The translations under genes and the position numbers were made by a program. Below, in pieces: positions 14,443 through 32,152 of a DNA stretch of 38,074 nt (position 1 is its first letter; each line of letters begins with the position of its first letter). The notes under the pieces were generated by a model that saw only the letters and a list, made by a program, of their open reading frames with translations, did no database searches and was not told the DNA's origin. Source of the stretch: a virus; the IMG/VR virus record IMGVR_UViG_3300025085_000073, positions 1-38,074 of that record, one strand, 5' to 3'.

Positions 14443-14634
14443 ATGAACTATGAAGTTTTAGCTAAGAAAGGAGATAGTACTATAGTATTAATCTCTGGAT
14501 GTTCTGAATCAGCAGCACTTACAACTGTTGCTGAAGCATTAACAAACGACTACTTTAAAGGTAGAACGTTTAGTGTAGAACCTATTCTTGCAGGAACTAT
14601 TCCTGTAACAAAACACAGCTTATTAAAGAAATAG
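14443..14634 (+). CDS. Small early protein with strong SD, 63 aa
   Basis: Not recognised. A compact 63-aa protein with strand and helix pattern: EVLAKKGDSTIVLISG, a helix ESAALTTVAEALTND, then a strand RTFSVEPIL. It resembles small alpha/beta proteins that pack as a single domain. Translation should be efficient because of AAGGAGG at optimal spacing. Its stop codon (14632-14634) touches the first base of a long structured RNA region, so its message end may be shaped by that RNA. Confidence 0.7.
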   Translation: MNYEVLAKKGDSTIVLISGCSESAALTTVAEALTNDYFKGRTFSVEPILAGTIPVTKHSLLKK

Positions 14635-14850
14635 GCTGCCATCTACAACTTTAAATTCTGCTTGCTCACTGTGAACTAGTCACTACGATTAGTATACAGC
14701 TGGGCAGCCAGAAAGTTGTAAAGACAACTGTGCTATCTCGTATGGAGCAAAGTATCTGATCCAAATACATTCCTGTATAAGTCGTCAACTATTTCCGTTG
14801 GGAAAACAAATGTATAAAATTATTTACTAACTCGCAAAGAATTTTGCGGC
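14634..14850 (+). ncRNA. Structured non-coding region with alternative helices (candidate RNA or leader)
   Basis: About 220 nt without a convincing gene, packed with perfect helices. GGCTGCC (14634-14640) pairs with GGCAGCC (14703-14709). AAAGTTGT (14712-14719) can pair either with ACAACTTT (14645-14652), giving a pseudoknot with the first helix, or locally as AGTTGT-AAAG-ACAACT (14714-14729). Then come ATACA-TTCC-TGTAT (14765-14778), TTTCC-GTTG-GGAAA (14792-14805) and CGCAAA-GAAT-TTTGCG (14833-14848). It ends 14 nt before a membrane-protein start. It is not a tRNA: no T-loop motif. It may be a switching leader for the downstream genes or a stand-alone RNA. Confidence 0.5.
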
Positions 14851-15023: not shown

Positions 15024-15244
15024 ATGCAGGAAAATTAAACACAAAAATGCAGGATGTAACATTCCCTGTAGAGCTAGATGTTGAAATATATGTCAACACA
15101 GAAATTATCAACGAACAAGTAATCCTTGAAAATCAAGACGATTATCTTGATTATGTTGAAGAAATGTCTAACAATATCTTATTTAAGAATTGGCATTACG
15201 ACTTTCATGTAAAAGAATTAACCGTAAACAACTCAATGTTATGA
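15020..15244 (+). CDS. Small acidic protein, 74 aa
   Basis: Not recognised. Beta-rich first half (QDVTFPVELDVEIYVNTEII) and an acidic helix (NQDDYLDYVEEMSNNILF), ending in a mixed FHVKELTV strand. Joined by ATGA overlaps to a membrane protein upstream and a very basic protein downstream, so the three are made together. Opposite charges of this and the next product would allow them to bind each other, though this is conjecture. Confidence 0.65.
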   Translation: MNAGKLNTKMQDVTFPVELDVEIYVNTEIINEQVILENQDDYLDYVEEMSNNILFKNWHYDFHVKELTVNNSML

Positions 15245-15405
15245 AAAGAAAAGCGATACTCGTAGGCTCTAAAGATAGAGCTAAAGTAAAGAAGCGTAGA
15301 AGACGCATCGGAACGTTCACCTCTGAGGCAATTAAATTGCAAAGAGAAAAGTTTAACGCTATGTCAACATGGGATAGAATCCTTGCTGACGTATCAAACC
15401 TGTAG
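15241..15405 (+). CDS. Very basic small protein, 54 aa
   Basis: Starts at the ATG overlapping the previous stop (ATGA). Residues 1-25 carry a dense basic cluster (DRAKVKKRRRRIGTF) followed by a helix (SEAIKLQREKFNAM) and a tail WDRILADVSNL. Nucleic-acid or ribosome binding is plausible from charge. Its last codons and stop lie inside the first strand of the structured RNA element at 15399, so translation termination and RNA folding may interfere with each other. Confidence 0.65.
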   Translation: MKRKAILVGSKDRAKVKKRRRRIGTFTSEAIKLQREKFNAMSTWDRILADVSNL

Positions 15406-15443
15406 GCCTTGAGGCTGTTAGACAGTTCGTTGCTGTCTACAGG
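15399..15443 (+). ncRNA. Structured RNA repeat, copy 1 (three-way junction with covarying stem)
   Basis: Closing stem CCTGTA/TACAGG (15399-15404 with 15438-15443), hairpin 1 GCC-TTGA-GGC (15406-15415) and hairpin 2 GACAG/CTGTC with loop TTCGTTG (15421-15437). The stop codon of the 54-aa gene is within the closing stem. Followed by TACTATTA, not a T-run, so it is not an ordinary terminator. Compare copy 2 at 15716. Confidence 0.75.
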
Positions 15444-15503
15444 TACTATTATTAACCAAATCAATCAAACGGAGCGGAGCCTACCTTAGTGACTCAAAAC
15501 ATT

Positions 15504-15707
15504 ATGAACAAGAAAAATATATTCGACAACATCTCAACTGAAGATGCACAAATGTTACAGCAGTATGCTGAACAATTAGCTAAAGACAAAGCAGAGTCAA
15601 AGACTAAATACACACTTAACCATATGGTGCGTGATGTTGCAAAGACTATGACTGTAACAACTACTGCATTGTTTACTTTATTATTGTTCTGTGGAACATC
15701 TGAGTAA
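15504..15707 (+). CDS. Small tail-anchored membrane protein between the two RNA elements, 67 aa
   Basis: ATG at 15504 (an earlier in-frame GTG at 15489 is less likely). The N-terminal ~40 residues are charged and helical (STEDAQMLQQYAEQLAKDKA); the C-terminus is hydrophobic (VAKTMTVTTTALFTLLLFCG, then TSE). It has the same layout as the proteins at 13568 and 20096: soluble part plus C-terminal membrane helix. It is the only gene between the paired RNA elements, which therefore bracket it exactly. Confidence 0.65.
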   Translation: MNKKNIFDNISTEDAQMLQQYAEQLAKDKAESKTKYTLNHMVRDVAKTMTVTTTALFTLLLFCGTSE

Positions 15708-15715
15708 ACAAATAA

Positions 15716-15760
15716 CCTGTAGGCCTTGAGGCTGTGAGGTGACTCGTTGTCACCTACAGG
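15716..15760 (+). ncRNA. Structured RNA repeat, copy 2
   Basis: Same closing stem (CCTGTA/TACAGG, 15716-15721 with 15755-15760), same hairpin 1 (GCC-TTGA-GGC, 15723-15732) and hairpin 2 with stem AGGTGA/TCACCT (15737-15742 with 15750-15755) and loop CTCGTTG. Relative to copy 1, four stem pairs change on both sides while everything else stays the same apart from one linker base and one loop base. Followed again by TACTATTA and an A-rich leader. Confidence 0.75.
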
Positions 15761-15785
15761 TACTATTAACTAAACTTAAATTATT

Positions 15786-15965
15786 ATGGATAAGAAATTC
15801 ATAGCACAGTGCAAAGAGCACTCAACAAGAAGCCAATGTTATACACCAGACAACTGGTTAAGTACAATTGGAGCTCATTTATGTGAGCTAGGTGTTTTCG
15901 TTCTAGGAGCTTACAGTGAGCTACCTAGAAAAGAACCAAGAACTAGTAATTGGATAATTAACTAA
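15786..15965 (+). CDS. Small unknown protein, 59 aa
   Basis: ATG at 15786 follows the A-rich leader AACTAAACTTAAATTATT. The 59-aa product has three cysteines (Cys9, Cys18, Cys33), a hydrophobic central helix (TIGAHLCELGVFVLGAYS) and a basic tail. Not recognised. The next gene has an almost identical leader (AACTAAACTTAAATATT), which overlaps this gene's stop. Confidence 0.6.
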   Translation: MDKKFIAQCKEHSTRSQCYTPDNWLSTIGAHLCELGVFVLGAYSELPRKEPRTSNWIIN

Positions 15966-15976
15966 ACTTAAATATT

Positions 15977-16249
15977 ATGCCACTGTATAAGCATCCTTGT
16001 AAAGATTGTACGTTTATAGGTACATTCAAAGAACTCTCTGAATATGGAGATAAACAAACAGAAGATGGTGTTAAGTATTTTGATGTTGATGTTTACATCT
16101 GTCAAAAGAAAAACATTCTTCGATCTTATGTTATGTGTAGATACTCTGACAGTGTATCAGATGAAACGGCATGTATGCTGCATGACTGGATAAAAACCAT
16201 GTTTGCACAAAATAACATGTCAATATTAAATTCTTATCACTTATTATAA
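15977..16249 (+). CDS. Small zinc-ribbon-like protein, 90 aa
   Basis: Seen: an N-terminal CKDC pair (residues 8-11) and later single cysteines (CQKKN at about 42, MCRYS at about 54, CMLHDW at about 66), enough for one zinc site but not in a standard spacing. The rest is mixed strand and helix (KYFDVDVYICQ; HDWIKTMFAQNN). No family recognised. It is led by a copy of the AACTAAA leader and is separated from the next gene by 55 bp that contain a weak GTCTT/AAGAC hairpin (16,264-16,287). Confidence 0.62.
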   Translation: MPLYKHPCKDCTFIGTFKELSEYGDKQTEDGVKYFDVDVYICQKKNILRSYVMCRYSDSVSDETACMLHDWIKTMFAQNNMSILNSYHLL

Positions 16250-16304
16250 ACTAAATAACTAATGTCTTACAGGTTAAAACAAAAGACGTAAACTAATCCT
16301 GAGA

Positions 16305-16568
16305 ATGCGTATGAGTACAATTAAAATTAACAAGTGGAACGATAGAAATATTGTTAACATGAAAGCAAAGAATGGTAAACGCGTTGTAGTGTTTACTAAC
16401 AAGTGGGCTAAAGTTCCTGCTAACATATACAACCTTGGAGCCAATGCTTTTAGAGGTTGGATGAAAAAGCAAACAAATTTACGACTCGTTAAAGTGTATG
16501 AGAACGATGAAGTAATGAACTTTAGTCTTGTAACAAAATCATACTATAACAAATATAATAAACTATAG
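16305..16568 (+). CDS. Basic small protein, 87 aa
   Basis: Not recognised. Strongly basic, with an N-terminal strand region (TIKINKWNDRNIVNMKAKNG), KRVVVFTNKWAKVPANIYNLG, a helix (NAFRGWMKKQTN) and a strand RLVKVYENDEVMNF. The beta-turn-beta pattern with many Lys/Arg/Asn suggests nucleic-acid binding. Two in-frame ATGs (16305 and 16311) are possible starts. It shares composition with the following 68-aa protein and may be related in function. Confidence 0.62.
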   Translation: MRMSTIKINKWNDRNIVNMKAKNGKRVVVFTNKWAKVPANIYNLGANAFRGWMKKQTNLRLVKVYENDEVMNFSLVTKSYYNKYNKL

Positions 16569-16780: not shown

Positions 16781-16962
16781 TGGACAAACAAAACTTAGTA
16801 GACAAGGCGTTTAACCTGTGCATAACAGGTTTTGCTATTGCATTGGGTACTTTGCTCTTCGCCTCAATTGTAGGCGTTGTAGCATCGTTCCTAATAGGAC
16901 TTGCACCTGTAGTAGCTGGTGCGATAGTAATAGGACTAATATATTATAGATTTAAAGAATAG
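16780..16962 (+). CDS. Two-helix membrane protein, 60 aa
   Basis: Two long hydrophobic segments: ITGFAIALGTLLFASIVGVV, then a second (ASFLIGLAPVVAGAIVIGLI) split by a short turn, with a charged N-terminus (MDKQNLVDKAFNLC) and a KE tail. Gly/Ala-rich helices could pack tightly. Coupled by TAATG to the basic gene upstream. A holin-like or superinfection-related membrane role is possible but unproven. Confidence 0.65.
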   Translation: MDKQNLVDKAFNLCITGFAIALGTLLFASIVGVVASFLIGLAPVVAGAIVIGLIYYRFKE

Positions 16963-22986: not shown

Positions 22987-23009
22987 GGGGGGCTTCGGCC
23001 TCCCTTTTT
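22987..23009 (+). terminator. Rho-independent terminator after the DUF932 gene
   Basis: GGGGGGC-TTCG-GCCTCCC forms a 7-bp stem (one G-T) with a stable TTCG loop, followed by TTTTT. It is the strongest terminator of the early region and divides it into a first and a second half. Confidence 0.9.
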
Positions 23010-32077: not shown

Positions 32078-32152
32078 GATTTGGTTACATTGTTCATACG
32101 ATGGTTTAGTTATTAGTTGGTTAAAAAGATAGAGGCTTCGGCCTCTTTCTTA
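32078..32152 (+). ncRNA. Candidate small RNA or attenuator leader
   Basis: From the expected start near 32,080 to the end of the hairpin at 32,152, about 75 nt with no gene longer than two codons, followed by a stable hairpin. Such a promoter-to-terminator unit could be a small RNA. Alternatively the hairpin is the 3' end of the upstream gene or an attenuator for the nuclease gene at 32170. Confidence 0.4.
32131..32152 (+). terminator. Rho-independent terminator before the RecE-like gene
   Basis: AGAGGC-TTCG-GCCTCT, a perfect 6-bp stem with a stable TTCG loop, followed by TTTCTTAATTT. It lies 18 bp before the RecE-like start. Confidence 0.85.

Follow-up and report, generated by a model that had tools for sequence, protein, structure and literature searches.

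Organization of the E1 locus

The stretch of DNA analysed here (38,074 nt, hereafter the window) is a 38-kb record of an uncultured virus, with PHROG matches for its terminase, portal and major head protein. The terminase was nearest to those of the crAss-like phages cr118_1 and cr113_1 among named phages (~28–30% identity), and many IMG/VR contigs matched it closely. The phage group that bears the RNA element described below, E1, is presumably marine. Structural genes extend leftward up to ~13.3 kb, and dense small genes run rightward from ~13.6 kb, with E1 among the latter. No Bacteroidota-type promoter stood out from the chance level near E1. The region contains the following features.

15241 to 15405, plus strand: F0, small basic protein of 54 aa (16 K/R, 5 D/E)
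15398 to 15448, plus strand: E1 copy 1 (17 of 17 pairs; among the training copies of the covariance model)
15504 to 15707, plus strand: F2, a protein of 67 aa with a hydrophobic (membrane) helix predicted at its C-terminus
15715 to 15765, plus strand: E1 copy 2 (17 of 17 pairs; tail ACUA)
15786 to 16249, plus strand: cassette genes (59 and 90 aa) after copy 2, in a variable slot occupied by other genes in most relatives
16305 to 16568, plus strand: F1, conserved gene that bounds the variable slot on the right

F2 showed no Pfam match above the cut-off and no PHROG match. The TAG stop codon of F0 falls within copy 1, toward its 5' end, and runs from the end of the 5' strand of the closing stem (P1) to the first base of the first hairpin (P2). 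All 15 compared phages had F0 and F1, whether they carried E1 or not.

Fold of E1 and comparison of its two copies

E1 is a three-way junction of 17 pairs, consisting of P1 (6 pairs) and the hairpins P2 (4 pairs) and P3 (7 pairs), which carry UUGA and UCGUU loops, respectively, and are joined by a GUN linker. On the 3' side, P3 is stacked on P1 without a gap, and unpaired ACUA follows. The parts of the two copies are located as follows.

15398-15403/15439-15444, plus strand: copy 1, P1
15405-15408/15413-15416, plus strand: copy 1, P2, with the UUGA loop
15420-15426/15432-15438, plus strand: copy 1, P3, with the UCGUU loop
15445-15448, plus strand: copy 1, tail ACUA
15715-15720/15756-15761, plus strand: copy 2, P1
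15722-15725/15730-15733, plus strand: copy 2, P2
15737-15743/15749-15755, plus strand: copy 2, P3

The original prediction from the window had placed two elements here, and both the parts they share and the parts that differ were as it described, the copies being 82% identical over 55 nt and 317 nt apart. The length it gave (45 nt) was too short: with a 6-pair closing stem and a 7-pair second hairpin, the junction measures 47 nt, or 51 nt with the ACUA tail. Its count of four compensated pairs in the second hairpin was correct, as A-U/C-G/A-U/G-C of P3 in copy 1 is replaced by G-C/U-A/G-C/A-U in copy 2; in addition, the seventh pair, which closes the UCGUU loop, is U.G in copy 1 and C-G in copy 2. 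The tails downstream of the elements read TACTATTA and AACTAATC. Within the window, all 17 pairs at this spacing were present only at the two copies, and none of 100 dinucleotide shuffles of the window reached 17 pairs (shuffle maximum, 16).

As had also been predicted, E1 does not resemble an ordinary terminator. Neither copy has a T-run or was called terminator-like, so an intrinsic (Rho-independent) terminator was rejected and such a role appears unlikely. Further candidates were set aside. For stop-codon readthrough, the frame remains open for a stretch past the copy 1 stop, but the frame that runs through E1 is not constant among copies and phages. By eye, E1 was also examined for a tRNA-like T-loop and for pairing of its loops with the neighboring noncoding RNA; the loop of L037 is changed without a matching change.

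Conservation of E1 in related phages

IMG/VR was scanned with a DNA pattern and relatives were also retrieved through their terminase, which yielded single E1 copies, and a covariance model was built from seven copies belonging to one close group. When related phages were searched with the model, a check named beforehand by the original prediction, further copies were recovered with the stems kept and with new compensatory changes. The held-out copy of L040 scored 51 bits (E 2.6e-12), and those of L037/L038/L041 scored 46 bits (E 1e-10). Among the held-out copies of two more divergent phages, the compensatory changes affected all three stems, which bears out the prediction that RNA structure rather than sequence is selected. 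In the L040 copy (AGCUGUAGAACUUGAGUUCGUUGGGCUAUUCGUUAUAGCCUACGGCAACUA), every stem is partly rewritten with its pairing kept; the UUGA and UCGUU loops are unchanged, and the outermost P1 pair alone is lost. The second loop of L037 reads UCACU. The copy of L122 was found later via a neighboring element. Among nine distinct copies, 98.7% of pair cells were standard and 8 of the 17 pairs had changed on both sides, counts that were matched by 0 of 500 shuffles, and slid registers paired at 29–43%. Both hairpin loops and the GU linker were conserved.

The pairing was specific to one strand. Only 2 of 153 cells were unpaired when E1 was read on the sense strand, as against 16 of 153 on the antisense strand. 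The sense strand holds 14 G.U cells, which would be mismatches on the other strand, indicating that selection acts on the sense RNA and that the transcript of the coding strand is the conserved one. Compensatory changes and strand-specific pairing together strongly support E1 as an evolutionarily conserved structured RNA.

Several weaker matches were discarded. L127–L130, from a relaxed-loop scan, held only 8–12 of the 17 pairs and were rejected as chance; L009 was a chance match to the first pattern, with high GC and no structure; and 14-bit matches in L036, L037, L040 and L041 were too short to hold the hairpins.

E1 was carried by 10 of the 15 compared phages and was missing from L108, L125, L027, L029 and L031. 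The original prediction had listed absence from homologous phages as evidence against the elements; what these five phages indicate is dispensability within the clade rather than unreality of the element. These close relatives keep F0 and F1. In whole-record searches each relative had one copy, even where the record was 64.7 or 49.9 kb long, and only the window had two. E1 was not found in terminase large subunit (TerL) relatives at 63–66% identity, in the bacterial or archaeal genomes searched, or in named phages by nucleotide search.

Position of E1 relative to neighboring genes

In every E1-bearing phage, E1 was located -8 to +15 nt from the stop codon of the upstream gene. Its immediate neighbor is the F0 stop in L005, L032, L037, L040, L122 and window copy 1; window copy 2 and the copies of L003, L004, L007 and L012 come right behind F2. 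In the first set, the TAG stop falls within CTGTAG of E1 in L005, L037, L040, L122 and window copy 1, and the F0 frame of L032 enters E1 and stops at the TGA of the UUGA loop. The upstream genes vary (three F0 types, or F2), and the downstream genes differ in nearly every phage. Because E1 remains anchored to a stop codon while the flanking genes differ, a generic mRNA function is favored over regulation of one gene, to which, by this comparison, E1 is not tied.

The surroundings of E1 also bear on whether it is an operator for a phage RNA-binding protein, perhaps F0 or another early protein, providing autogenous or timed operon control. In favor are the small size and strongly basic character of F0, the end of the F0 gene within E1 in six phages, and the conserved hairpin loops and GU linker, which are as expected of a recognised surface. 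However, F0 is present in all five E1-less phages, and the E1 sequence does not follow the F0 type, since an almost unchanged E1 follows each of types A, B and C. Each type also occurs without E1 directly behind it (L125/L029, L003 and L031). We regard the operator function as a real possibility, though one that we would not expect to prove correct.

Position can likewise be judged with respect to the following gene, whose translation E1 would control if it were a leader. The next ATG lies ~20 nt after E1 in six phages, several of which have a conserved AACTAAACTTAAATTATTATG leader before different genes, but the spacing from E1 to this start varies more than the spacing to the upstream stop, and in L004, L005 and L122 a pseudoknot leader element separates E1 from the next start. 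A leader function is unlikely on this evidence.

Integron attC sites are folded elements that border exchangeable gene cassettes, with core sites GTTRRRY / RYYYAAC, and E1 likewise is a folded element at the borders of exchangeable cassettes; in E1, integrase-type core sites are not conserved, GTTAGAC being present in copy 1 only. Genes on both sides vary sharply at the E1 borders, which are places of gene exchange, and E1 stands at the left border in 7 of 7 phages with cassettes between F0/F2 and F1, while E1-less phages have no cassettes there. E1 might be a DNA-level recombination linker or attachment site for cassette exchange, its hairpins mattering as DNA or not at all. Against this, neither target duplication nor a recombinase was seen. 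Selection on a linker would favor sequence identity rather than paired change, whereas sense-strand G.U pairs and compensatory changes in all stems point to a single-stranded sense RNA as the object of selection. This function is accordingly quite improbable.

Origin of the two-copy arrangement

The arrangement F0-E1-F2-E1 is unique to the window. That the copies bracket exactly one gene, as originally claimed, is true here but is particular to this genome, its relatives being single-copy. As a general feature, two copies acting as a pair around one membrane-protein gene did not hold up, since the relatives have one copy with other neighbors. F2 in the window retains the upstream leader (with the TACCTTAGTG motif) that is seen where F2 lies elsewhere, which suggests a recombination product; F2, together with its own leader, was probably placed between two E1-bearing arrangements. 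The leader occupies 15465-15503 (plus strand), and its conserved TACCT(T/C)AGTG motif may be part of a small hairpin. The motif is kept where F2 lies elsewhere (L005, L032, L037 and L040) and is lost where F2 directly follows F0.

Co-occurrence of E1 and F2

F2 was present in all 10 E1-bearing phages and was found in none of the 5 E1-less ones (whole records), and it was the only gene family of the region with perfect co-occurrence. The region family table splits F2 into fam5 and fam13, and L040, which is outside the table, was covered by the whole-record search; the record of L125 covers ~830 nt upstream, including both usual F2 places, and has no F2. Across the phages, F2 has 59–68 aa and a C-terminal hydrophobic segment, and E1 is always downstream of it on the same strand. 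In five phages, other genes intervene and the distance from F2 to E1 is 0.8 to 2.3 kb, so simple adjacency does not explain the link. The E1-less phages fall in two places on the tree of the neighboring noncoding RNA, which, on this weakly resolved tree, suggests that F2 and E1 were gained or lost together more than once.

The link comes from 15 related, mostly incomplete contigs, and is regarded as a lead from a small sample of fragment records. E1 and F2 could form one two-part system in which the RNA controls the F2 message and both are gained or lost together, the three-way junction blocking exonucleases or capturing a factor; we consider this a long shot.

Other RNA elements and hairpins in the region

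A second unreported noncoding RNA of ~220 nt was observed between two genes at 14634-14850 (plus strand). It was 79–96% identical in all 14 relatives compared, had a folding z-score of -4.0 and showed no Rfam match. Its crossing stems, GGCUGCC/GGCAGCC and ACAACUUU/AAAGUUGU, each have one compensatory pair, and a pseudoknot is thereby supported.

Directly before the F1 start, 16264-16301 (plus strand) resembles a short H-type pseudoknot leader (GUCUU/AAGAC and CAGG/CCUG). It was conserved in 15 of 15 phages, and L037 has three copies before three different genes. The fold is plausible; sequence conservation is high and one pair alone covaries.

A hairpin inside a small gene at 16813-16831 (plus strand; AACCTGTGCATAACAGGTT) was called terminator-like. 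Its CCTGT/ACAGG arms are in common with the E1 closing stem, and it has no other E1 feature. Further along the rightward gene set, GGCTTCGGCC hairpins were present at 22987-23003 and ~32128-32145 (plus strand), the first followed by TTTTT. Both are likely internal terminators, which suggests that the set comprises several transcription units.

Proposed role and comparison with known systems

The comparative sequence data establish the fold of E1 together with its selection, strand, stop-codon anchoring and independence of flanking genes. As to function, we hold with about even confidence that E1 is a cis-acting intercistronic mRNA element that serves processing, stability or the binding of a factor, and that it belongs to the early rightward message of a clade of presumably marine crAss-like phages. 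Just ahead of the variable slot, where the last gene reaches its stop codon, the sense transcript would adopt a compact three-way junction whose two hairpin loops are conserved. A nuclease or an RNA-binding protein may recognise this fold, and E1 may thus act as intercistronic punctuation that sets the end, stability or output of the F0 and F2 segment relative to the following genes. Because P1 would be covered while a ribosome completes the upstream gene, the fold may form only after that translation slows. The fact that the five E1-less phages keep F0 and F1 counts against this explanation, because the process in question is then independent of the presence of E1.

The early mRNA of phage T7 has intercistronic RNase III processing sites, which are irregular long hairpins. 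Like E1, these are structured RNAs between early genes, near stop codons and independent of the following gene; unlike them, E1 is a short junction of three stems whose loops are conserved, and it is at most a putative cleavage site.

In phage HK022, the put RNA (~70 nt, two stem-loops) is located downstream of early promoters and suppresses termination without a protein (PMC9378689). It shares with E1 that it is a structured phage RNA in early operons, and two put sites occur in one genome (PMC9378689). E1 might be an antitermination site like HK022 put or lambda nut, whose nascent RNA modifies RNA polymerase so that it reads through later terminators. A structured nascent RNA in an early-type operon would suit such a site, as would the terminator-like site with a TTCGG loop further down at 22987-23003. 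However, E1 lies 1.4–3 kb into the operon, at a stop codon; its architecture, a 47-nt three-way junction that is normally single-copy, is unlike the two stem-loops of put (PMC9378689); and five relatives have no E1. Antitermination is therefore very unlikely.

Cluster K mycobacteriophages carry extended start-associated sequences (ESAS), 17-bp inverted repeats that occur in many copies and are linked to start codons (PMC3203893). They resemble E1 as clade-specific repeated elements with inverted repeats in intergenic phage positions and of unknown function (PMC3203893), but E1 is tied to stop codons and is single-copy.

Novelty and implications

Nothing in the window reached the gathering threshold of Rfam 15, including its self-cleaving ribozymes and riboswitches, and a permissive search gave no credible match. 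By this comparison, E1 is a new RNA family, of a kind, the structured intercistronic phage mRNA element, that is already known. A full-text search of open-licence literature for crAss-like phages and pseudoknots returned only group II intron work, and a search for phage three-way junction RNAs with covariation returned no description of E1.

Conserved RNA structures have hardly been described so far in crAss-like phages. An alignment and a model now define the E1 family, its phylogenetic range is clear, and two more unreported conserved RNAs lie in the same 2 kb. Should E1 and F2 prove to be a two-part system, these phages would have an RNA-controlled accessory module of a new type. E1 offers a testable entry to post-transcriptional control in crAss-like phages, with the co-occurring gene F2 to test it with.
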